NCBI RefSeq assembly: GCF_900109935.1
Contig: NZ_FOBV01000001.1
Span: 496,001-560,000, forward strand
Length of the DNA stretch: 64,000 bases
From: Chryseobacterium taichungense
GTDB taxonomy: Bacteria; Bacteroidota; Bacteroidia; Flavobacteriales; Weeksellaceae
Direction of reading: 5' to 3'
Within the stretch, counting starts at the first letter, position 1, and each line of letters begins with the position of its first letter. This document shows, piece after piece, positions 16,187 to 56,016 of this stretch. The position numbers and the translations under genes were made by a program. The notes under the pieces were generated by a model, which did not search any database, was not told where the DNA came from, and saw nothing but the letters and a program-made list of their open reading frames with translations.

Positions 16187-17557
16187 TTAATTGGCCCACC
16201 ACACCGGGGTGTACATGGATGACACTACAGTGGCGTTTTGATTCAATATCCTTTCTGACTTTGGAGTCATTAATCTCAATGGAATCTTTTTCGTCTGGCT
16301 GTTTTGGTTGGGAGTTAAAGTTGGGAATCCTGTTCGTCTCCAGTCGTTGTATGGCTCCATCGTCGTAAATAAAGCAATATACTTTTGATTCATAATATTC
16401 TCCAGAGTAACTGTGGATGACACCGATGTGGCATACGTGTCATTTGCCGTTCCTGTAACCTCCTTGATGGAAGAAGCGACGGCATCTTTCAACGCAGCCT
16501 GGGCTGAAGCAAGATTTCCCAATCTGAAGTAGGCTTCAGCCTGGATAAATTTGATTTCGCTATACCCAAAAATAATATTTGGGGTTGAGGGTGAACCAGC
16601 AAAATAACTTCCGAAAGGTGAAGCATCCGAATCTGCATCTTCAGGCGCAGATCCTGAATACCCTTGTGGGTTATGGCTATCCGGAGACACAAAAAAAGGA
16701 AGTCTGGGATCAGCATTATTTTTCAGAAGGTCAACAAAATATTTCCCCATAGACATATATCCAGACCTTGCATTGTTAAATCCATACCAGAGATTCTGGT
16801 TGTTTCCCCCATCAAATGTTGCTACCAGGTTATCACTGTCTGAAGCCAGTGAAAGCTGTGAATAATCTAAGGCTTTCTGTGCGGCTGTATTGTCTTTTTT
16901 TGATAATCTGAGGGCATATCTTGCTTTTAAAGCATATGCCAGTTTTTTCCACTGTAATACATCACCTCCATAAAATAAATCGTCAGTCTTCGGTAAACTT
17001 TTATTGGCATTTTGAGGTTTTTCAAAATCGGCAATGGCTTTATCCAGGTAAGATTGAATCTGTGTGATCACCTGTTGTTGCGTATCATACTTTGGACTTA
17101 GATTGACAGTTCCCTGAAAAGCCTGAGAGAAAGGGACATCTCCCCAGGCATCTGTGGCATATCCTATATTCATGGATATCAACACTCTTGCAATGCCGTC
17201 GTAATATGGATTTTCTGCACCAAACTGATTGATGATCTGGTTAAGATTCACACCAGCCTGATAGATATTCGCCCAGTCGGTTTCAACATCGGTTTCGGTA
17301 AGGAAATAATTGGTATAATCTAAGGACTGTAGCTGATTCCCATTCGTATGCTGTGTAAAAAGACTTAATGTTCTGGGCAGATTGCCTGTTGAATTGCTGA
17401 TCGTACCAATTTCTGCTCCGGTAAGTAAAGTTTTCGGGCTTGATAATTGTGTAGGGCTGTTGGGGTTATCATTAAAAGTATCCAGTTCATGCTCGCAGGA
17501 GAGCAGGCAAGATATGATCATCAGTGATGCCCCTGCTGTATAGATAAATTTTTTCAT
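16187..17557 (-). CDS. SusD/RagB-like surface lipoprotein, pair 1
   Basis: 456 residues with a lipoprotein signal peptide (lipobox LLSC, Cys about 21, then acidic EHELD as in surface-exported Bacteroidota lipoproteins). The body is helix-rich, with SusD-family stretches such as WANIYQAGVNLNQII, ISMNIGYATDAWGDVPFSQAF and the terminal PVWWAN; the form resembles the SusD-like_2 group. SusD proteins sit on the outer membrane as lids over SusC barrels and bind the substrate. It starts 2 bp after the susC stop at 17560, so the pair is co-transcribed. No glycosidase or protease is nearby, so the substrate (glycan, peptide or other) cannot be told. Confidence 0.93.
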   Translation of the reverse strand: MKKFIYTAGASLMIISCLLSCEHELDTFNDNPNSPTQLSSPKTLLTGAEIGTISNSTGNLPRTLSLFTQHTNGNQLQSLDYTNYFLTETDVETDWANIYQAGVNLNQIINQFGAENPYYDGIARVLISMNIGYATDAWGDVPFSQAFQGTVNLSPKYDTQQQVITQIQSYLDKAIADFEKPQNANKSLPKTDDLFYGGDVLQWKKLAYALKARYALRLSKKDNTAAQKALDYSQLSLASDSDNLVATFDGGNNQNLWYGFNNARSGYMSMGKYFVDLLKNNADPRLPFFVSPDSHNPQGYSGSAPEDADSDASPFGSYFAGSPSTPNIIFGYSEIKFIQAEAYFRLGNLASAQAALKDAVASSIKEVTGTANDTYATSVSSTVTLENIMNQKYIALFTTMEPYNDWRRTGFPTLTPNQNSQTKKIPLRLMTPKSERILNQNATVVSSMYTPVWWAN

Positions 17558-17559
17558 AA

Positions 17560-20475
17560 TTAAAATCCGAATTTGAATGTTAAAAAATAGCTTCGTGTAT
17601 TAGGATTATTAAAATAATCAAACCCTAACGTGTTGGATGCTGATCCGGCGAATGAATTTTCGGGATCAATCCCTTTATAATTGGTTATTAGGAATAAATT
17701 TCTGGCACTGAAGGTCACTTCTGCACTTCTGATAAATGTTAAGCCTGCCGATTGGGAAAGAACTTTACCTATATTGTAACTAAGGCTTACATCTCTTAAT
17801 CTTACCCAGTTAATATCTTTTTCGATAGCGGTTTCATTTGCGCTGAACGATCCGTCTCCGAGATAGCTTACATAGTATGCTTTATTTGAAATGGCAATAT
17901 TGTTGGGCTGTCCATTTTCCAATACTCCAGGAATGATATATGTACCTTGTCGGTTATCTGCCGATGCCTGGGTCATTCCCAACCTGTTCAACCTGGCTAA
18001 AGTACCATTCCAGATATCTCCTCCTTTTCTTACATCTAGCAAGAAACTCAGAGATATATTTTTATATCTGAAATTATTCCTGAAGCCACCAGTCCAATCA
18101 GGATTTGGATTTCCAATCAACTGTGCTCCTTCCGCCAATATTGGGAGACCGTTTGATCCTATAATTAAATTACCGGCATTATCTCTTTGATAAGCTGTTC
18201 CATAAAATACACCTAACGGCTGACCGAGGGTAATAGTAGGCGTTAAATTTCCACTAAAATAATCACTTCCTTGCGGCGCATTATCGTCAACACCATTTAA
18301 GTCGGTAACTTTATTTCTGTTGAGCGTCCAGTTAGCTGTAAAATTCCAGTCAAAGTTTTCATTTTTAAGAATATCATAACCTAGACTAACTTCCAAACCT
18401 TTATTTTCTACAGTAGGACCATTCGTATAATAAATCTGATAGCCGTTAGATGCGGCAACAGGACGTCTGATCAGGAGATCATAATTGGTTGATTTGTAAG
18501 CACTGGCGTTAAAATGTAATCTTTTAAACATTTCTAATTCCAACCCTAGTTCGAACTCTTTGTTGTGCTCCGGCTTCAAATTATTGTTATATAAAGTTGT
18601 TGAAATTCCATAGGCTCCTGTGCCGTTATAAGGGGAAGATAATTGCGGGCCGAAAGAATCGTAAAAAGTAGGGGTTACATAAGGGGTTATAATACTATAT
18701 GGGCCGGGAGATGCATATGTACTAGAATAAGCAGCTCTTAATTTTCCAAGATTTACCCAATCCGGCATTCCCAGTGTTTTATTGAAAATCCAGGAAGCAG
18801 ATAAGGAGGGATAAAAATAAGATCTGTTTTGTTTTGGGAGAGAAGAACTCCAATCGTTCCTGCCGGTAACTGTTAAATAAAACTGATCATAAAACGCAAA
18901 TTCTAAAGAAGCAAAGACCCCTCTTTTCAAATATTTGCTGTCCCCATTCTGCGCTTTAAGGGTAGAAAAATTACTTAAATTAAATTGATTGGGTTCAAGC
19001 ATAGATGAACCGACACTGTACTGATCATTTGAAAATATCGAGTTTATCTGGCCTCCGATATTGTAATTAAGATTAATATTATCCGTAAAATTTACGATTC
19101 CGTTGAATATCAAATCTAAGTTATACAGGCTTTTAGTAAAGCTGTCGACAATGACCTGTCCGGATCCGTCTGCAGTAGAGTTTCCGTTACTCGTAAAAGA
19201 ATAATTCTGCTGTGCATGGGTCGTGTAAGTATCTACTCCGGCTCTTACCAATACATTCAACCATTTGCTGTAGTTGTAATTAATATGTCCATTAAAGATC
19301 ACACGATTCGTTTCATCCTTATAAGGGTTGTTATACACTGTATAAAGAGGATTATCATAGGCCGCGAAATAATTTTTATTGTATCCCTGATCCGTTTGAT
19401 AGTCTCTCACATCATAAGAAGAAGGCATACGCAATAGGGACAACATGATTCCCGCAGTATTACTTCCCTTTTGTGCTCTGACTCCCAACGTATTGGTATA
19501 TAGAACATCTGCACCAACTTTCACTTTATCGGTGAGCCTGTATTCACTATTGAAATTGAATGATGTTTTTTTCAGGCTTGTATTCGGAACGATACCTGTT
19601 TGATCTATATGTCCGAAGGACGCTCTGAAATTGCCATTGTCTCCACCCCCAGATAATGCTAAATTATAATTATTGGTAACTCCTGTCTGATAGAAATTTT
19701 TAACATTATCATACGCTTTCAATCCTTCAACACTAGAAATCAGCGGGCCCCAGCTTTGATTGGTTCCGGAGGTAACGGCAAATCCGTCTGAGCTATATTG
19801 GGCAGGCTGAATATAAGTGGTTCCATTGGTACCTGCAGCATAACTTTTCTGTAGATTTATCATATTGCTAAGCTGATCAAAACCTACAGAGGTTGAGAAA
19901 TCGATACCTATACCTTTTCTTTTTCTGCCCTTTTTAGAAACATAGATAATTACACCGTTCCTGGCTCCTTCACCATAAAGTGCGGCGGCTGCCCCACCTT
20001 TTAAGACAGAAACACTTTCTATATCATCCGGGTTGATATCCACAGCCCTGTTTGAATCATCTACTCCACCGATATTTGTTCCTGATCCCGCATTGTTGTT
20101 GTAGGAGTTGTCGATGATCTGACCATCCAATACAATTAAAGGCTGACTGGTAAGCTCGATTGATTTTTGTCCCCTGATCACAATTCTACTTGATGCCCCG
20201 GGTGTTCCGGAGGCTCCGGTAACCTGTACACCGGCTACTTTCCCGGCCAATCCCTGGATAACGTTTGATTCACCAGACTTTTGCAGGTCTCCTCCTGCTA
20301 CCTGTGAGACGGAATAGCCGATTGCTTTTTTCTCTCTTTTAATGCCTAGCGCAGTAACGACTACGCCTTCAATTTCACCTGTTCTCAGCGTATCACTCTT
20401 TTTTTGCTGTGCCTGGGCTAGGGCCACAGAAGAGGACAGAACCAATGAAAGTACACTGATTGATAATTTCTTCAT
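17560..20475 (-). CDS. SusC/RagA-like TonB-dependent outer-membrane transporter, pair 1
   Basis: 971 residues from the ATG at 20475 (a second ATG two codons upstream is possible). A signal peptide ends near ALAQAQ, then the plug starts almost at once (EIEGVVVTALGIKREKK at about 35). The carboxypeptidase-regulatory-like N-terminal domain common in Bacteroides SusC is absent. Plug motifs VIRGQKSIELTSQPLIVLDG and VSVLKGGAAAALYGEGARNGVI are clear; the barrel ends in an aromatic strand (FLTFKFGF). It imports its ligand across the outer membrane with energy from TonB, with the SusD partner 2 bp downstream. Similarity to pair 2 suggests paralogy. Confidence 0.93.
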   Translation of the reverse strand: MKKLSISVLSLVLSSSVALAQAQQKKSDTLRTGEIEGVVVTALGIKREKKAIGYSVSQVAGGDLQKSGESNVIQGLAGKVAGVQVTGASGTPGASSRIVIRGQKSIELTSQPLIVLDGQIIDNSYNNNAGSGTNIGGVDDSNRAVDINPDDIESVSVLKGGAAAALYGEGARNGVIIYVSKKGRKRKGIGIDFSTSVGFDQLSNMINLQKSYAAGTNGTTYIQPAQYSSDGFAVTSGTNQSWGPLISSVEGLKAYDNVKNFYQTGVTNNYNLALSGGGDNGNFRASFGHIDQTGIVPNTSLKKTSFNFNSEYRLTDKVKVGADVLYTNTLGVRAQKGSNTAGIMLSLLRMPSSYDVRDYQTDQGYNKNYFAAYDNPLYTVYNNPYKDETNRVIFNGHINYNYSKWLNVLVRAGVDTYTTHAQQNYSFTSNGNSTADGSGQVIVDSFTKSLYNLDLIFNGIVNFTDNINLNYNIGGQINSIFSNDQYSVGSSMLEPNQFNLSNFSTLKAQNGDSKYLKRGVFASLEFAFYDQFYLTVTGRNDWSSSLPKQNRSYFYPSLSASWIFNKTLGMPDWVNLGKLRAAYSSTYASPGPYSIITPYVTPTFYDSFGPQLSSPYNGTGAYGISTTLYNNNLKPEHNKEFELGLELEMFKRLHFNASAYKSTNYDLLIRRPVAASNGYQIYYTNGPTVENKGLEVSLGYDILKNENFDWNFTANWTLNRNKVTDLNGVDDNAPQGSDYFSGNLTPTITLGQPLGVFYGTAYQRDNAGNLIIGSNGLPILAEGAQLIGNPNPDWTGGFRNNFRYKNISLSFLLDVRKGGDIWNGTLARLNRLGMTQASADNRQGTYIIPGVLENGQPNNIAISNKAYYVSYLGDGSFSANETAIEKDINWVRLRDVSLSYNIGKVLSQSAGLTFIRSAEVTFSARNLFLITNYKGIDPENSFAGSASNTLGFDYFNNPNTRSYFLTFKFGF

Positions 20476-47278: not shown

Positions 47279-47635
47279 ATGAGAGATTTTAAAAGGTTTG
47301 AAGTTTGGCAATTAAGCCATCAATTAACTTTAAAAATTTATACTTCAACCAAAAACTTTCCTAAAGAAGAAATTTTTGGATTGACCTCTCAGATCAGAAG
47401 ATCATTTGCTTCCATCGGATATAACATTTCGGAAGGAAGCGGAAGAAATTCTGATAAAGAATTTGCTAATTTCATCAATATTGCATTAGGATCGTCCAAC
47501 GAAGCCGAAAACCAATTAATTCTTGCTAAAGATTTGGATTACATTGAGGAAAATGATTATCAAAATCTTTTATCCGAATTAATAACCTTAAAAAAGAAGC
47601 TTGTAACCCTTTGGAACAGGCTAAACGGAAATTAA
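47279..47635 (+). CDS. Four-helix-bundle protein (23S rRNA intervening-sequence protein-like)
   Basis: 118 residues starting MRDFKRFEVWQLSHQLTLKIY, with SQIRRSFASIGYNISEGSGRNSDKEFANFINIALGSSNEAENQL: the pattern of the four-helix-bundle family first seen in 23S rRNA intervening sequences and related to the Avd accessory of diversity-generating retroelements. Probable nucleic-acid binding. Such genes often move with flanking repeats. Here it sits between groES and groEL on the same strand; inverted repeat words flank it (47226-47250 and 47672-47702). The groEL start lies only 75 bp after its stop, so it should be co-transcribed with the chaperonins. Confidence 0.9.
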   Translation: MRDFKRFEVWQLSHQLTLKIYTSTKNFPKEEIFGLTSQIRRSFASIGYNISEGSGRNSDKEFANFINIALGSSNEAENQLILAKDLDYIEENDYQNLLSELITLKKKLVTLWNRLNGN

Positions 47636-47671: not shown

Positions 47672-49336
<1,665 letters not shown>

Positions 49337-49363
49337 CGGTCAGCGACCGAGGCAAATATATAT

Positions 49364-49394
49364 AAAAACCGTTCTGATTTTCAGAGCGGTTTTT
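49364..49394 (+). terminator. groEL terminator, copy 1
   Basis: AAAAACCGTTCTGA-TTT-TCAGAGCGGTTTTT with one T.G wobble and a T run. The same hairpin recurs at 51955-51983 and 52729-52758. Confidence 0.92.
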
Positions 49395-49582
49395 GTTTTG
49401 TATTTTTAATTATATTTGAGACAAAACTAATAATCATATGGTAGAGAAAATTGACAAGATCACTCAATAAAGTGTTTTATTGACAGCATACTCAAAGATA
49501 TTTGGATTATGACACAGCGACAACAAAACCTGCAGAAAGAATCATAAAATTATCTTTAACAAATGAGAAACACCGAACCGAT

Positions 49583-49746: not shown

Positions 49747-50850
49747 ATGAAATTAACTTATTACAAGAACTTAGATGGGGTTAGAGCAATTGCCGCATTG
49801 ATGGTTATGGTATTTCATTTCTTTCAAAGTATTGAGATTAATACCCCCACTTTATCACGATTATCAAAAATATCTATATTTGGACAGACAGGAGTTACAC
49901 TTTTTTTTGTTTTATCAGGTTTTCTTATAACCAGAATTTTGATTTTCACGAAAAGCAATACAGACTACTTTAAGAACTTCTATTTGAGAAGAACTCTGAG
50001 AATATTCCCATTGTATTACTTGTTTCTGCTAATTTTCTATTATGCTTATCCCTTTATTTTTAAATCTGAATTTATTCCAATAGGACAACAAATCTTTTAC
50101 TATACATATCTTCAGAACTTTGCCATTACTTTTAATTGGGCTACTGATGGTCCAGGACATTTTTGGTCTTTAGCTGTTGAAGAACAGTTTTATTTGTTTT
50201 GGCCATTAGTTGTTTATCTCTTTAGTAACAAGAATCTGTATAGAATTATTGTAGGAATTATTGCAGGTTCCTTTATCTTGAGAATAATAATGTTAATGCA
50301 CAATTATGAAGTATTTTATTTTACATTTACTCGATTTGACTCTCTTGCCATAGGCGCTTTATTGTCATTATTAGAAATTCGTCAGATTTTTAATAAGAGA
50401 AATGCAAACAAATTCTTGTTACTTACTGTAGGAATTTTAGCACCTACACTTGTGTTGTGGACATTTGTAACGGGTGAAGCAAACAATATAATTCAGGCTA
50501 TTAAATATGTATTGCTGTCATTTACATATTTTGCTTTGATTGGATACGTTCTTTCAATTAATGCAGGAAACTTTGTTAATACAATTTTAGAGTCTAAGTT
50601 TTTCGCTTATACAGGAAAAATTAGCTATGGATTATATGTGTATCATCCTTTTGCATATATGCTCTCAAAGAGATTTATGTATACAGAAAACTGGATCCTA
50701 AATATGATAATTGGATTTGCGTTAACTTATATATTAGCCGCTTTGAGTTATCATCTGTATGAATCCAATTTCCTTAAATTGAAAAAGTACTTTGAGTATT
50801 CAGGAAAAAAAGAAATGATTCAAAAAAAAACAACCACTAACATTGTGTAG
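49747..50850 (+). CDS. Acyltransferase family 3 membrane protein (OafA/YrhL-like)
   Basis: 367 residues, ten or more helices. Motifs of the family: LDGVRAIAALMVMVFHFF with the active-site His at about 23, RRTLRIFPLYY, and GHFWSLAVEEQFYLFWP. The enzymes move acetyl or other acyl groups across the membrane onto surface sugars (O-antigen, peptidoglycan, exopolysaccharide). It lies in the accessory region after groEL, 38 bp after the attC-like dyad, with no sugar genes near it; AT-rich codon use suggests an acquired gene. The substrate is not readable. Confidence 0.92.
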   Translation: MKLTYYKNLDGVRAIAALMVMVFHFFQSIEINTPTLSRLSKISIFGQTGVTLFFVLSGFLITRILIFTKSNTDYFKNFYLRRTLRIFPLYYLFLLIFYYAYPFIFKSEFIPIGQQIFYYTYLQNFAITFNWATDGPGHFWSLAVEEQFYLFWPLVVYLFSNKNLYRIIVGIIAGSFILRIIMLMHNYEVFYFTFTRFDSLAIGALLSLLEIRQIFNKRNANKFLLLTVGILAPTLVLWTFVTGEANNIIQAIKYVLLSFTYFALIGYVLSINAGNFVNTILESKFFAYTGKISYGLYVYHPFAYMLSKRFMYTENWILNMIIGFALTYILAALSYHLYESNFLKLKKYFEYSGKKEMIQKKTTTNIV

Positions 50851-51047: not shown

Positions 51048-51662
51048 ATGACAAAAAAAATAGCAGTTTTGATAATAACCTGGTTCGTTTTTGCTTTTGC
51101 TGACTACTTTTATCTCCCCTATTTTGTTCAACCATTTTCTTGGCTTTTAGTGTGTATAATTTTGCTAATTTTAACAGTAAGACAGGTCATAAAATTAATC
51201 AAAGAAAAGAAAAACATAAAGACAAACAGAATAATAAATCTTTCAGTAACATTGAGTTTATTTGTTCTAACATTTTACAATTTCAACAAAATCCCAAACT
51301 CAATTATTGAAAAAATTGACTGGAGTATTTCTTACAATAAGCGCAATCAAATAGTAAAAGATGTTTTAACAGAAAAATTGAAACCAAATACAAAAATGAA
51401 TAATAGTATTTGTAAACTTTCATTTGACTTCCCCATTACTTCAAATGGCGGAAATGATATTTGGATTTATCAAAATAAAACAGAAGGCACAAAAACTATC
51501 AAATTTTGGATTTCTCGTGGCTTTTTCGAATCTCCACAAACTTATTTTATATTCACAAATGATAATGAGACACAAAAGCAATACGAAGAACTAATAAAAG
51601 TAAAACCTGAATATAATTGGAAATTAGAAAAAAATTGGTACCGTATAATGGAACGAGATTAA
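51048..51662 (+). CDS. Hypothetical membrane-anchored protein
   Basis: 204 residues. Three hydrophobic helices in the first 90 residues (about 4-22, 28-47, 62-80), then a soluble part with KLSFDFPITSNGGNDIWIYQNKTEG and TYFIFTNDNETQKQYEEL, rich in Lys and Asn. No family recognised. It is AT-rich and lies between two copies of the groEL 3' end, in the accessory region. A TAAATTTG at 50985-50992 may be its -7 element, though the upstream TTG is too far. Confidence 0.6.
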   Translation: MTKKIAVLIITWFVFAFADYFYLPYFVQPFSWLLVCIILLILTVRQVIKLIKEKKNIKTNRIINLSVTLSLFVLTFYNFNKIPNSIIEKIDWSISYNKRNQIVKDVLTEKLKPNTKMNNSICKLSFDFPITSNGGNDIWIYQNKTEGTKTIKFWISRGFFESPQTYFIFTNDNETQKQYEELIKVKPEYNWKLEKNWYRIMERD

Positions 51663-51718
51663 TTTTTTTAATAAAAATTATCGCACTCGATAGAGATGCT
51701 AAACTATACGTTATTAGA

Positions 51719-51923
51719 TGACTTCGGGTACAACGTAAAAACTGACGAGTATGTAAATATGCCTGAAGCAGGAATCATCGACCCTACAAAAGTAACAAGA
51801 GTTGCCCTTGAAAACGCAGCTTCCGTATCCGGAATGTTATTAACCACTGAATGTGTCATCACTGAAGTGAAAAAAGACGAACCGGCAATGCCAATGGGCG
51901 GAGGAATGCCAGGAATGATGTAA
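51719..51923 (+). pseudogene. Diverged duplicate of the groEL 3' end
   Basis: The 205 bp from TGACTTCGGG to the stop match 49132-49336 at 197 of 205 positions, without indels. Six of the eight differences are synonymous; the other two give A-to-V and L-to-P (NMPEAG). The frame is open and runs from an unrelated start ([12 protein letters not shown] at 51696), so a 75-residue product could be made, but it would hold only the end of GroEL and cannot fold as a chaperonin. The terminator is copied with it. The mostly synonymous changes suggest that it came from a working groEL of a related strain rather than from recent copying here. Confidence 0.92.
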
Positions 51924-51954
51924 TGCGGTCAGCAACCGAGGCAATTTATATAAT

Positions 51955-51983
51955 AACCGTTCTGATTTTCAGAGCGGTTTTTT
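51955..51983 (+). terminator. groEL-type terminator, copy 2
   Basis: AACCGTTCTGA-TTT-TCAGAGCGGTT followed by T run, preceded by the same GGTCAGCAACCGAGGCAA context as copy 1. Confidence 0.88.
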
Positions 51984-52078
51984 ATTTTGTATTATTGCTT
52001 TACATAAGGAAATAGTATCTTTACATAATATATCACTGCTTATAAGCGACAATCTTTATTCAAAATACCAATCGATAA

Positions 52079-52699
52079 ATGAGACAAACACTTTTAATAT
52101 TAACTTTTATACTGACAAGTTTTATGAGTTTCGGACAAACTCAACATCTAGAACCAGCTAAAGACTTTAAACAGTATGAGGGAGATCTGAAAGAGTATTA
52201 TGACAATGTATTTCCATTGCTGTATAAAGATTATTCTGATAAACCAATTGCCCGGTACACTTCAATGCCTTCCTTTTCTAACGAATATTCATTTTCCATA
52301 GAGAAAATAGAAGGCAAAAACTTCGTTGTTAGCAACAGAATGTCTGAAAATTTTTGGTATGCAAAAAAACGAAAGAAAGTCAAAGTAATTACAAGCAAAA
52401 CAGAACTGACTAATGACTTATACCTCAAAATAGTTGACTTATTTAAACTTTTAGAAGAACAGACAAAGAAACCAGAAAAAAATATAACGGGATTTGACGG
52501 AGTGACTTATTATTTTGCAACGACTGACAAAAATGGACAAATAAAAATCGGTGAGACTTGGTCACCGGACGACAATTCTCTGCTCGACAGACTTGTTAAA
52601 ATTTGTGATAATGTTTATTCATTGGGAAATAGAAATAACGTATCACAAACCGACATTTTAAGAGACATTGAAAATTTATTAAACGATTTGAAAAAATAA
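52079..52699 (+). CDS. Secreted hypothetical protein
   Basis: 206 residues with a signal peptide (MRQTLLILTFILTSFMSFGQ). The mature part has mixed strands and helices (MPSFSNEYSFSIEKIEGKNFVVSN, GFDGVTYYFATTDKNGQIKIGETWSP) and an amphipathic C-terminal helix. No family recognised. It lies between terminator copies 2 and 3, as if it were one cargo unit. Confidence 0.65.
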   Translation: MRQTLLILTFILTSFMSFGQTQHLEPAKDFKQYEGDLKEYYDNVFPLLYKDYSDKPIARYTSMPSFSNEYSFSIEKIEGKNFVVSNRMSENFWYAKKRKKVKVITSKTELTNDLYLKIVDLFKLLEEQTKKPEKNITGFDGVTYYFATTDKNGQIKIGETWSPDDNSLLDRLVKICDNVYSLGNRNNVSQTDILRDIENLLNDLKK

Positions 52700-52728: not shown

Positions 52729-52797
52729 CAAACCGTTCTGATTTTCAGAGCGGTTTTTATTTTGTATTATTTTTTTAATTATATTTGAGAAAAACTA
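52729..52797 (+). terminator. groEL-type terminator, copy 3, with downstream flank
   Basis: AAACCGTTCTGA-TTT-TCAGAGCGGTTTTT (52729-52758). The sequence after it (TTTTTAATTATATTTGAGA and AAAACTAA) also matches what follows copy 1, at 49404-49430. So this is a copy of the original groEL downstream boundary. Confidence 0.88.
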
Positions 52798-52879: not shown

Positions 52880-52904
52880 ACTGTAATTTATTAGTAATTA
52901 CAGT
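52880..52904. promoter_or_regulatory. Dyad upstream of the ATPase operon
   Basis: ACTGTAATT (52880-52888) and AATTACAGT (52896-52904) are perfect inverted arms around 7 bp. Size and symmetry fit an operator; no regulator gene lies beside it. The rest of 52798-52993 is AT-rich with no gene seen. Confidence 0.4.
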
Positions 52905-52993: not shown

Positions 52994-53023
52994 TTGACTG
53001 CATAAATATTAATTGTAAATTTG
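52994..53023 (+). promoter_or_regulatory. Promoter of the ATPase-nuclease pair
   Basis: TTG (52994-52996), 19-bp spacer, TAAATTTG (53016-53023): full match to TTG-N19-TAnnTTTG. Transcription would start near 53029, about 14 nt before the ATG. Confidence 0.75.
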
Positions 53024-53042
53024 ACTAATAAATGAGTAATTG

Positions 53043-54269
53043 ATGAGTAAAATAAAAATAAAAAATTTTGGACCAATTAAAGATGGTTATCAAGAAAACA
53101 ATGGTTGGTTTGATATAAAAAAAGTTACAGTATTTATAGGAAATCAAGGTTCGGGTAAAAGTACTGTAGCGAAGTTAATTTCAACTTTCACATGGATCGA
53201 GAAAGCTTTATATAAACAGCTTGTAAATAAAGGTGAAGTTACACGAAAATCAAAGTTTGAAAATTATTACTGTGAATATCAAAATCTAAAAAATTACTTT
53301 AACCATAATACTGAAATAGAATTCGAAGGTAAAGCGTACAAATTTCATTATAAAAATGGCAGGCTAAATATTGATGAAGTTAAGGGACTTAAATACTTAG
53401 TTCCTAAAATTATGTATGTTCCTGCTGAAAGAAATTTTGTAAGTGCAGTTTCACAACCTGAAAAATTAAAATATTTACCTAAAACACTCTATACATTTCT
53501 AGAAGAATTTGAACGTTCAAAAAATGAACTAGTTGATTCTTTACACTTACCAATAAATAATTTAAGTTTTTCATATGACAGCAAAAAAAGGGTTTCTAAA
53601 ATTATTGGTGAAGGATATGACTTACCTCTTTATGAAGCTTCTAGTGGGCTTCAATCTTCAATTCCACTTTTTCTAGTATCTAAAAACCTAGCTGAGGGAA
53701 TTGATAGAATAAGTGATAATTCGATAAGTAAAGTTAGTTTGGAAGAAATGCAAACTTTAAGAACACGACTTCTTTCTTTACTTCGAAATGAAAAACTAAC
53801 AGAAGAGCTTAGAAATCAAGCAATCGAAGTATTATCATCAGTTACAAAAAATGATTGCTTTATTAATGTCGTAGAAGAACCCGAACAAAATCTTTTCCCA
53901 TCTTCACAAAGAAGTATATTAAATAGTTTGTTAAAGTTTAATTCTATAAATGTAGGCAATATGCTAATAATGACAACCCATAGTCCTTATCTAATAAATT
54001 ACTTGACATTGGCTGTGGAAGCAGATAAATTAAAACTCCGAGTTAATGATAAAGAATTAAGATCGGAATTAAACAAAATTGTCCCTTTAGATTCAACTTT
54101 AAATGGAGACGATCTGGTTGTTTATCAATTAGATGAAAAGGAAGGAAAGATCATGAAACTTAAATCTTATAAGGGTCTTCCATCAGATGAAAATTATTTA
54201 AATATTGGTTTAGCTGAATCAAATGATGAATTTTCGAAACTATTAGATATTGAAGACTTATGCCAGTAG
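53043..54269 (+). CDS. ABC/OLD-like AAA ATPase of a two-gene unit
   Basis: 408 residues from the ATG at 53043 (a TTG one codon upstream is ignored). SMC/ABC-type ATPase: Walker A GNQGSGKST at 33-41, an insert of about 150 residues, ABC signature-like ASSGLQSS at about 201-208, Walker B INVVEEPEQNLFP at about 273-285 with the catalytic glutamates, and the H-loop MTTHSPYL near 311. This is the layout of OLD/RecF-like ATPases found in phage-defence systems (as in Gabija, Septu, retron and abortive-infection units). No TOPRIM domain follows. It overlaps the next gene by 10 bp. AT-rich and in an accessory region. Confidence 0.85.
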   Translation: MSKIKIKNFGPIKDGYQENNGWFDIKKVTVFIGNQGSGKSTVAKLISTFTWIEKALYKQLVNKGEVTRKSKFENYYCEYQNLKNYFNHNTEIEFEGKAYKFHYKNGRLNIDEVKGLKYLVPKIMYVPAERNFVSAVSQPEKLKYLPKTLYTFLEEFERSKNELVDSLHLPINNLSFSYDSKKRVSKIIGEGYDLPLYEASSGLQSSIPLFLVSKNLAEGIDRISDNSISKVSLEEMQTLRTRLLSLLRNEKLTEELRNQAIEVLSSVTKNDCFINVVEEPEQNLFPSSQRSILNSLLKFNSINVGNMLIMTTHSPYLINYLTLAVEADKLKLRVNDKELRSELNKIVPLDSTLNGDDLVVYQLDEKEGKIMKLKSYKGLPSDENYLNIGLAESNDEFSKLLDIEDLCQ

Positions 54270-54865
54270 ATTTTTTTATTACTCCTTGTACAAATCCGGT
54301 TTGTAATTGCACAGCATATCCACATCATTGCTTAGAAAATATTCCTCAAACATCGTTTGGTATTACGGATGAAGATGGTGGCAATAGTACACCAGCCAAG
54401 ATTGATACTACCGCTCCAACAATTTGGGATTTGACAGTTACAAATAATTCAGGTACTGATGTAAAATTTAAAGCAATAGATTGGTGTGTTCCAATTTATA
54501 GGACTGGAACATATAATTTGAATGATGAATCAAGAACTTCAACTCAATTTTCATCAAATAATATTGGCACTGAATTAATAAAAAGATGTGAAGGTTTTCT
54601 TCAATTTGACTCTAAAATAATTTTTATCGAAATAAAAAAACGTCCAAAAAATGCGCGTGAATGGATTAAGGATGCAAGAGAAAAATTTGAAGAAACAATA
54701 TTAAGCTTTAAGGAACATCATCCACATTTAATATCTCAAATTGAGAAACCTATTTTAGCGAACACATTACATGTTGGCGTTGCTAGTAGTGAAATGGTAC
54801 AAAAAAAAATACTGAAGGATAAAATAGGTATTGAATTTATTAGAAAAAACAATTTAACTATATAA
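54260..54865 (+). CDS. Putative PD-(D/E)xK nuclease-like partner of the ATPase
   Basis: 201 residues overlapping the ATPase gene by 10 bp. The N-terminus is Cys/His-rich (CTNPVCNCTAYPHHC, residues 10-24), a possible metal site. The centre reads KRCEGFLQFDSKIIFIEIKKR (109-128): a strand, an acidic residue (E111 or D117), then E124-x-K126 at the end of a hydrophobic strand, as in the catalytic core of PD-(D/E)xK nucleases. A helix (EWIKDAREKFEETILSF) follows as expected. The rest has no known domain. The nuclease reading is inference from the motif; a sensor or inhibitor is possible. No close family is known to me. Confidence 0.65.
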   Translation: MPVDFFITPCTNPVCNCTAYPHHCLENIPQTSFGITDEDGGNSTPAKIDTTAPTIWDLTVTNNSGTDVKFKAIDWCVPIYRTGTYNLNDESRTSTQFSSNNIGTELIKRCEGFLQFDSKIIFIEIKKRPKNAREWIKDAREKFEETILSFKEHHPHLISQIEKPILANTLHVGVASSEMVQKKILKDKIGIEFIRKNNLTI

Positions 54866-55028: not shown

Positions 55029-55265
55029 TCATTCTGATTTCTGATCCATTTCAAAATCAAACAATTCTTGCGGATGAACTTCTAAACCTTTTGCCAATTC
55101 CTGTATGGTAGAAATTCTTACATCAACTTCACCCTTTTCAATTTTACTGATATTACTATGGTCGACATCACATTTTTGAGCTAACTGCCGATAGCTCAAT
55201 CCCAATTTCTTTCTACATTCTTCAACTTTTTTTCCAAAAGCTATTCGAAATTCAATTTTATCCAT
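55029..55265 (-). CDS. XRE-family regulator divergent from the SymE-like gene
   Basis: 78 residues, almost all one Cro/C1-type HTH: LGLSYRQLAQKCDVDHSNISKIEKGEVDVRISTIQELAKGLEV. Short acidic tail (FDFEMDQKSE). A DNA-binding repressor. It is divergently placed to a SymE-like gene, and the 24-bp palindrome at 55311-55334 between them is a likely operator, so the pair is probably autoregulated like a toxin-antitoxin unit. Confidence 0.88.
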   Translation of the reverse strand: MDKIEFRIAFGKKVEECRKKLGLSYRQLAQKCDVDHSNISKIEKGEVDVRISTIQELAKGLEVHPQELFDFEMDQKSE

Positions 55266-55731: not shown

Positions 55732-56016
55732 GTGATTTTTAAAAACCATTACGTTAGTCGGCACAATCAGTCTGATGATTTCTTCAACCGCTCAGAACCG
55801 GCATCCAGATATTCAGTTGAGGCAAACAACCACTGCTTCAGGACGATCAAGAGTTCCGTTAAAGCAATCAACCATTCCGAAGAGCCAATCAACTCCTCCG
55901 AAGAGCCGATCAACCAGTCCGAAGAGCCAATCAACCGCTTAGAAGAGCCGATCAACCACCCAGAAGAGGCAATCAAGTACAATTTGTTATATAACAGCTC
56001 TTTACAGCCCTTTTGA
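55732..56016 (+). CDS. Possible short protein with heptapeptide repeats
   Basis: 94 codons covering the 21-bp tandem repeat. In this frame each unit reads (I/F)NxSEEP, for example INHSEEP INSSEEP as neighbours, with the third and fourth residues variable. The frame is open throughout and the units decay upstream. An opposite-strand frame is also open across the repeats, as expected for 21-bp units, so openness proves little. No ribosome site or promoter is clear. Coding status uncertain. Confidence 0.3.
   Translation: MIFKNHYVSRHNQSDDFFNRSEPASRYSVEANNHCFRTIKSSVKAINHSEEPINSSEEPINQSEEPINRLEEPINHPEEAIKYNLLYNSSLQPF
55782..55977. repeat. 21-bp tandem repeat with variable centre
   Basis: Nine units of 21 bp (55782, 55803, 55824, 55845, 55866, 55887, 55908, 55929, 55950) plus a partial. 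The last five share (A/G)ATCAAC at the start and GAAGAGCC at the end, while about 6 bp in the middle differ in every unit; the first four are degenerate. Confidence 0.9.

Follow-up and report, generated by a model that had tools for sequence, protein, structure and literature searches.

Introduction

Septu and the PtuAB arm of retrons combine a PtuA-type ATPase with an HNH nuclease. Septu is reported to cleave tRNA-Tyr (PMC13096335). Besides such named systems, databases list candidates: PDC names denote putative defence genes proposed by a guilt-by-embedding screen, and most of those that the source discusses still await validation (PMC12988326). Candidates in PADLOC can also fail when tested: defence was not evident for two other PDCs in one native host (PMC12409345). 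Here we analyze a gene pair that matches one of these candidates, together with the region downstream of groEL in which it is encoded.

Results

A two-gene unit catalogued as PDC-M29

The DNA investigated is a stretch of 64,000 nt from Chryseobacterium taichungense (GCF_900109935.1, contig NZ_FOBV01000001.1, positions 496,001-560,000 of the forward strand), here called the window; all coordinates are relative to it. The first-pass annotation of this DNA had described an ATPase gene overlapping the gene of a nuclease-like partner by 10 bp as a candidate undescribed defence system. The two-gene unit is present as described, with both genes on the plus strand:

53043..54269, plus strand: PDC-M29A, SMC/Rad50/PtuA-like ABC ATPase, 408 aa (PADLOC, Pfam AAA_15, AlphaFold2 model, PtuA structural match)
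54260..54865, plus strand: PDC-M29B, probable PD-(D/E)xK nuclease, 201 aa, long Cys-headed branch (PADLOC, core conservation, HsdR_N_2 profile)

The 408 aa of the ATPase are counted from the ATG at 53043; the start in the ORF list is the TTG at 53040. The PADLOC model PDC-M29A matches the ATPase with 571 bits over residues 1-405 of 408, the model PDC-M29B matches the partner with 88 bits (E 1.4e-25), and the PDC-M29 arrangement, A first and B adjoining on the same strand, is found in the window. Calling the system undescribed was too strong, since PADLOC-DB 2.0.0 (2023) already lists the pair as candidate PDC-M29, though we found no description of its function. A literature search, with preprints and supplements outside its range, returned no paper with the name PDC-M29; the search for HEC-02 gave nothing relevant. 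As judged from its sequence, the window pair is a new long-headed member of a catalogued, uncharacterised candidate defence family. A retron reading of the pair was discarded: by eye, none of the adjoining genes looks like one for a reverse transcriptase.

The ATPase is predicted to form a PtuA/Rad50-like head

The motifs previously assigned to the ATPase were all recovered: Walker A GNQGSGKST at residues 33-41, the signature SSGLQS at 200-205, a Walker B that closes with E278/E279, and H313. When 15 sequences are aligned, G33, G38-S40, S200-G202, S205, E278-L284 and H313 are invariant. Pfam assigns the protein to AAA_15 (59.8 bits, which exceeds the cut-off), and the Pfam scan found no TOPRIM domain in it. 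AriA is the second-best PADLOC model with 65 bits. The sequence models of PtuA match weakly (PADLOC 43 bits; NCBIfam retron PtuA 36 bits, with a cut-off of 500), and a PDB sequence search returned no match.

An AlphaFold2 model of the ATPase (pLDDT 78.5, pTM 0.80) was compared with the PDB. The top match is PtuA of Septu/retron Ec78 (Z 16.6, 270 residues, 4.0 Å), and the titles of entries among the matches name PtuAB and HNH nuclease. Rad50 and SMC heads follow with Z scores of about 13-15, nearly equal to PtuA, and that other families do not head this list excludes nothing. The predicted structure thus models as a PtuA/Rad50-like head.

The partner is probably a PD-(D/E)xK nuclease

For the partner, a PD-(D/E)xK-like core (E111/D117, E124, K126) and a Cys/His head had been proposed. 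In an alignment of 33 partners, E124 and K126 are present in all and residue 111 is acidic throughout (25 D, 8 E), which retains E111, E124 and K126 as the core, whereas D117 drops out with D in 14/33. The residues of the head, C10, C15, C17, H22, H23 and C24, are present as written but mostly unconserved, and the weight laid on them found no support. C15, H22 and H23 are found in the window partner alone; C10, C17 and C24 are common to five long-headed partners (the window, L019, L020, L043 and L044), C17 and C24 being restricted to these. One N-terminal Cys occurs in 32/33 partners, placed at C10 in one alignment and at C24 in another. Two further cysteines are conserved, C110 in 33/33 and C76 in 30/33. 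The long-headed partners form a clade (support 0.999) with an extra Cys segment and, in four of the five, a loop around residues 83-105; they carry K at position 142, where the other 28 partners have Q. The PDC-M29B score is 88 bits for the window partner versus 145-180 for the short-headed relatives L034-L037 and L058.

Searches of Pfam, NCBIfam and PHROG gave no noteworthy match for the partner, and a single-protein search of PDB sequences was without a match; helicase, HNH, PtuB and AriB had no match in its 201 aa with Pfam and PADLOC. The partner profile had a single PDB match, ribosomal eL13 (E 0.13-0.16), which was taken as chance. Single distant partners gave sub-threshold matches to HSDR_N_2, DUF2726, SfsA and Cas4, which also hint at a PD-(D/E)xK nuclease but occur among about equally strong unrelated chance matches, and HsdR_N_2 was picked for comparison after one distant relative's sub-threshold match. 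The profile search that had been suggested for the partner was carried out with hhalign, aligning the 33 partners with 27 HsdR_N_2 domains, and gave a probability of 76.7 (E 2.1e-5, score 35.3), compared with scores of 13.9 for the reversed profile and 16.0 for the best of 20 column shuffles. Over 58 columns the RC(D/E) of the partners is placed on the RxD of HsdR_N and ExK on ExK. The probability drops to 24.7 with the 24 closer partners alone, leaving out nine distant ones. When all eight families that could be assembled from the collected ORFs were compared, the partner itself ranked first; next came the family of 28 members taken from the HsdR_N_2 loci (36.7, probability 71), and the six others scored at most 13.8. 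Two candidate nuclease relatives were rejected: with the complete partner set Cas4 scored lower than its reversed null, and DUF2726 scored 19-20 with the wrong stretch aligned.

An AlphaFold2 model of the partner, built from four sequences, reached a pLDDT of 40.5, too poor for a reading of the fold. Since the core and the HsdR_N profile match point to a PD-(D/E)xK nuclease but the model is this poor, we call the partner a probable rather than a proven nuclease. It might instead share the fold but be inactive or serve as a scaffold, or be an unrelated ExK protein, with the ATPase as the effector, for example by DNA clamping. The lack of a confident fold, the shortness of the profile match and the K that replaces Q142 in the window's branch would suit such a protein; however, all 33 partners retain the acidic residue together with E124 and K126, and outside the window's own branch these are otherwise only 22-29% identical to the window protein, which makes this explanation unlikely. 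We continue with the partner as a probable nuclease.

The pair is conserved together and patchily distributed

PDC-M29B was detected in 15/395 genomes of the order. Relatives of the window partner are present in 12/395 genomes of the phylum with a single-protein query and in 25/345 by profile; the order and phylum samples overlap, and each of these counts includes the window's own genome. The 51 partner matches correspond to 35 distinct places, 12 matches being second fetches of listed places. Not counted among the 35 are two L040 fragments, which lie at a contig end where no ATPase is visible, and two damaged partners, one truncated (L086) and one interrupted by a stop (L084), both of which have ATPase sequence upstream.

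All 35 distinct places with a full-length partner have an ATPase directly upstream on the same strand, confirming that the pair is conserved together across the phylum. Of these places 32 were found via the partner; L054, L058 and L059 were found via the ATPase and are for this reason unable to test the pairing. The two genes overlap by 4 to 26 nt in 33/35 places, by 80 nt in L083 (mechanical start), and are 4 nt apart in L058; the ATPase of L048 is split into two ORFs. The reverse direction is looser, as L055 contains a related ATPase next to a protein that the partner profile missed.

A lone PDC-M29A-like ATPase is encoded by the Microcystis phage Mic1 (L057, positions 16586-17824 of the record). 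It is 50.6% identical to that of the window, its Walker B region reads EEIEQN versus EEPEQN, and no partner adjoins it; it may be an anti-defence decoy or the remains of a degraded system. Viral contigs yielded no partner beyond L054, found via its ATPase, and L064, which is the same place again, and a further ATPase-family query returned the same three contigs only. A single-protein search of plasmid and phage records found no partner relative; with the partner profile, two plasmid records, L058 and L059, proved to encode one. On the Persicobacter plasmid L058 (6001-7750) the pair is flanked by a DUF262-like gene on one side and is directly followed on the other by two genes resembling Mod and Res of type III restriction, by eye a typical embedded-defence setting.

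In four genomes of another genus (L038, L039, L042 and L045) a distant ATPase-partner pair was seen by eye beside a lysS-like gene, as if vertically inherited. Such a form, and the close structural match to Rad50 and SMC heads, would be expected of a housekeeping pair of ATPase and nuclease that works in DNA repair or recombination, Rad50/Mre11-like in spirit. The patchy occurrence in the order and the phylum and surroundings that vary between genomes argue against it, and we regard a housekeeping role as very improbable.

The pair is located in a hotspot behind groEL

The pair is encoded downstream of an ORF that we take, from its sequence, to be groEL. The region between this gene and a small HTH gene contains a truncated copy of the groEL 3' end and further genes:

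47711..49336, plus strand: groEL, the hotspot anchor; its 3' end, 49129-49336, is the repeat reference
49747..50850, plus strand: cargo, 367-aa protein, acyltransferase-like by eye, no PADLOC match
51048..51662, plus strand: cargo, 204-aa membrane-type protein, no PADLOC match
51716..51923, plus strand: groEL 3'-end remnant, 208 bp, 96% identical to 49129-49336 (repeat comparison)
51948..52004, plus strand: second copy of the groEL terminator repeat, the first being 49360-49416 (repeat comparison)
52079..52699, plus strand: cargo, secreted-type protein of 206 aa with the third terminator copy behind it, no PADLOC match
52730..52756, plus strand: intrinsic terminator shortly before the pair, the groEL terminator repeat in its third copy (repeat comparison)
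52994..53023, plus strand: possible Bacteroidota-type promoter TTG-N19-TAnnTTTG (motif match)
55029..55265, minus strand: small HTH (XRE-like) gene, distal hotspot edge (by eye)

The groEL terminator hairpin is thus present in three copies in the window. The DNA is AT-rich as had been stated: the two kilobases that hold the pair have a GC content of 0.275 and 0.286; values of 0.28-0.31 extend across the whole 50-55 kb stretch and rise to 0.32-0.44 on the flanks. A small protein gene is located between groES and groEL (47279-47635), presumably a four-helix-bundle gene of the 23S intervening-sequence type, and a repetitive ORF with SEEPINH-like units (55732-56016) lies between the HTH gene of the hotspot and a gene for an HxlR-type regulator.

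Of the signals upstream of the pair, the promoter that had been termed full consensus, TTGACT-16-TAAATT, scores 9/12; sigma-70 sites of this type occur 22 times in the stretch versus 17.6 +/- 3.7 times in shuffles, not above chance. Promoters of the Bacteroidota type follow the rule TTG-N19-TAnnTTTG, and the possible match at 52994-53023 is of a kind that also arises in 57/2000 shuffles of the 343-bp upstream stretch. The reported 9-bp dyad exists (52880-52888 / 52896-52904), but its proposed role as a regulator site found no support: the 371 AT-rich bases around it contain 8 inverted pairs in all, so that nothing points to such a site. The terminator at 52730-52756 is the only dyad with a clear reading.

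Extra groEL 3' ends lie downstream of groEL in 22 of 40 genus genomes

We surveyed 40 genus genomes, scoring at most 16 candidates in each; extra matches to the groEL 3' end were found in 22, with up to 8 matches per genome. By their listed positions, the extra ends in these 22 genomes share contig and strand with groEL and follow it within about 6 kb. The 3' end of pyrG, the sole control gene, had extra matches in 3/40 genomes, each of 23-46 bp and elsewhere, and in 0/40 nearby. Extra copies were also detected in at least 6 of the 10 genus genomes of the order sample, a lower bound with at most 5 candidates scored per genome. The four other genomes of the family have one groEL-end match each among the matches listed. 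In the rest of the order sample at least six genomes show a second match; judged by position, four of these six matches come from another part of the same gene, and two are on a different contig. One genome of the genus has some of its remnants about 46-51 kb from groEL (G049:C4:24784-76203), which hints at a large later insertion.

We laid out 20 loci, the window and 19 others (L161-L179). Since 13 of the 19 were chosen partly for many copies, remnant frequencies are taken from the 40-genome survey. Remnants are present in 13/20 loci, comprising 35 matched pieces, none on the opposite strand. Almost all (32/35) end at position 435-437 of the 437-bp probe, the groEL end; of the three exceptions, two represent the front half of a remnant that is interrupted. 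The 5' breakpoints take 26 different values. Breakpoint 321-322 looks inherited, because the upstream flank is shared in five places; breakpoint 298 is found six times, and its flanks differ in part. With 5' breakpoints this variable, site-specific integration is not our first choice as the origin of the remnants, yet the recurrence of breakpoint 298 in partly different flanks lends it some plausibility. By eye, no recombinase was seen in the hotspot loci. A palindromic repeat (GTCAAGGTTTTAAACCTTGAC-like) is located just upstream of groEL remnants in L164, L165, L166, L169 and L170.

Among the pieces from the first 14 loci, 23 of 30 match the groEL of another species better than their own, with 3 ties, which is weak evidence because each piece has 13 rivals. 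The genome with the nearest groEL end (L174, 95%) has the same genes farther downstream, an HxlR-type regulator and a dehydrogenase, and other cargo; no partner gene was found in this genome. A small HTH gene marks the distal edge in most loci and is, by eye, of the same type in L162, L164, L168, L171 and L179. A hotspot anchored in groEL is unexpected, and a literature search for it gave nothing relevant.

Part of the hotspot cargo matches defence models

Relatives of the window's 204-aa gene precede groEL remnants in L166, where the gene is split into two ORFs, and in L170. Another cargo gene recurs with a remnant behind it in L163, L164, L169 and L177, which belong to different species. PADLOC was run at 1e-8 on all 50 listed proteins of at least 120 aa from 13 loci and on 10 chosen proteins from six loci. 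Matches were obtained for 16/60 cargo proteins (13/50 and 3/10), in 10 of the 19 related loci:

L161: DndC-like
L162: OLD/AriA-like ATPase and Mrr-like PDC-S02
L165: NsnB of Menshen; PDC-M12A and B
L166: DzbA of Dazbog
L169: PDC-S59, PDC-S32 and SoFic
L170: AbiU
L172: partial match to a pAgo model
L173: PDC-S59
L176: two genes of a type III-A retron
L177: NsnB of Menshen

At the same threshold no cargo match was found in L163, L164, L167, L168, L171, L174, L175, L178 and L179. Several of the matches are single genes of multi-gene systems, and those of ATPases are partly generic. The matching proteins are encoded by the larger, mostly distal genes, which were scanned first; among the proteins scanned last there are 0/23. 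The three other cargo genes of the window gave 0/3 matches and ten window proteins from outside the hotspot, used as controls, 0/10. Compared with these controls, Fisher p is 0.009 for the 37 first-picked cargo proteins and 0.06 for all 60, and because of the latter value we consider the enrichment of defence genes suggestive rather than proven. The defence role that the first-pass annotation had assumed for the pair is consistent with the PADLOC models and the hotspot neighbors.

The same evidence bears on an addiction pair resembling a toxin-antitoxin system, in which the partner would be a toxic nuclease restrained by the ATPase and would stabilise a plasmid or island, phage defence taking second place at best. 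The genes form a tight overlapping pair, the AAA_21 model bears an AbiEii label, and one copy is located on a plasmid and others in variable regions. The neighbor of the partner is, however, a PtuA-type ATPase and no small antitoxin, and many hotspot neighbors match defence models, so that we consider an addiction pair improbable.

Discussion

We propose that the pair is a two-gene antiviral operon of type PDC-M29, in which a Septu-like ATPase gate works with another nuclease, carried as cargo of a groEL hotspot; this is the reading that we hold to be probable, if by no wide measure. We read it as Septu-like with a different nuclease because the ATPase models as a PtuA/Rad50-like head. The product of gene A would dimerise on ATP and serve as sensor and gate. 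Gene B, with its overlapping start, would be co-produced with A, and its product would be held by A until infection alters the ATP or nucleic-acid state of A. The partner would then cut phage DNA or a host nucleic acid, for example tRNA, and the infection would stop.

The operon may have arrived as cargo behind groEL, in a hotspot where genes are swapped and stacked. Incoming DNA would pair through groEL, carrying its own groEL end and cargo, and the joint to the resident DNA would form without homology inside the old groEL end. In this event groEL would stay whole because the donor supplies the 3' end, and the old end would be pushed downstream with its terminator and become a remnant. Repeated rounds would build a stack of cassettes, which could pass from one species to another when the repeated groEL ends recombine. 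The remnant pattern and the defence-matching cargo suggest accretion without an integrase, anchored in groEL. That the groEL 3' end is an integrase-free landing site for defence genes in this genus, where cassettes stack and spread and PDC-M29 is one of them, appears to us an evenly balanced proposition.

If PDC-M29 is active, a PtuA-type ATPase gate would work with exchangeable nucleases, HNH in Septu versus PD-(D/E)xK here, and a database candidate would become a testable system with the named residues E111, E124 and K126. The hotspot would be of wider interest as a route by which defence genes gather beside a core gene without an integrase. It would also offer a readable record of earlier insertions and a place to seek new defence genes genus-wide.

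Comparison with known systems

The closest entry is PDC-M29 itself, which both window genes match in the same order and on the same strand, with the window partner in the long-headed branch. Septu and the PtuAB arm of retron Ec78 share with the window the two-gene plan of ATPase and nuclease, and their PtuA-type head is the best structural match of the window ATPase. The likeness to Septu rests on this ATPase, with Rad50 and SMC heads scoring nearly as high; PtuB is an HNH nuclease, whereas the window partner is without an HNH or PtuB match and has an ExK core instead. PARIS (AriA and AriB) offers the next-best PADLOC model for the window ATPase, AriA, but the partner has no AriB match. In Gabija and OLD a TOPRIM domain is fused to the ATPase, a domain without a match in the window's gene A, and the UvrD-like helicase of Gabija is unmatched by gene B. 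The N-terminal nuclease domain of HsdR (Pfam HSDR_N_2) aligns with the partner through its RxD...ExK core; in contrast to that domain, the partner is a stand-alone protein with conserved cysteines (C76, C110 and one near the N-terminus).

For the hotspot, the nearest parallel is found in T6SS/Rhs arrays. Homology-facilitated illegitimate recombination has been proposed for orphan immunity arrays (PMC5361080), and the same recombination model is reported for effector swapping in Pseudomonas aeruginosa (PMC11751169). The orphan arrays resemble the groEL hotspot in that successive insertions push old 3' ends downstream and are anchored in an upstream conserved gene. Unlike in T6SS/Rhs arrays, the anchor of the groEL hotspot is an intact core gene, groEL, and its cargo is functionally untied to the anchor.
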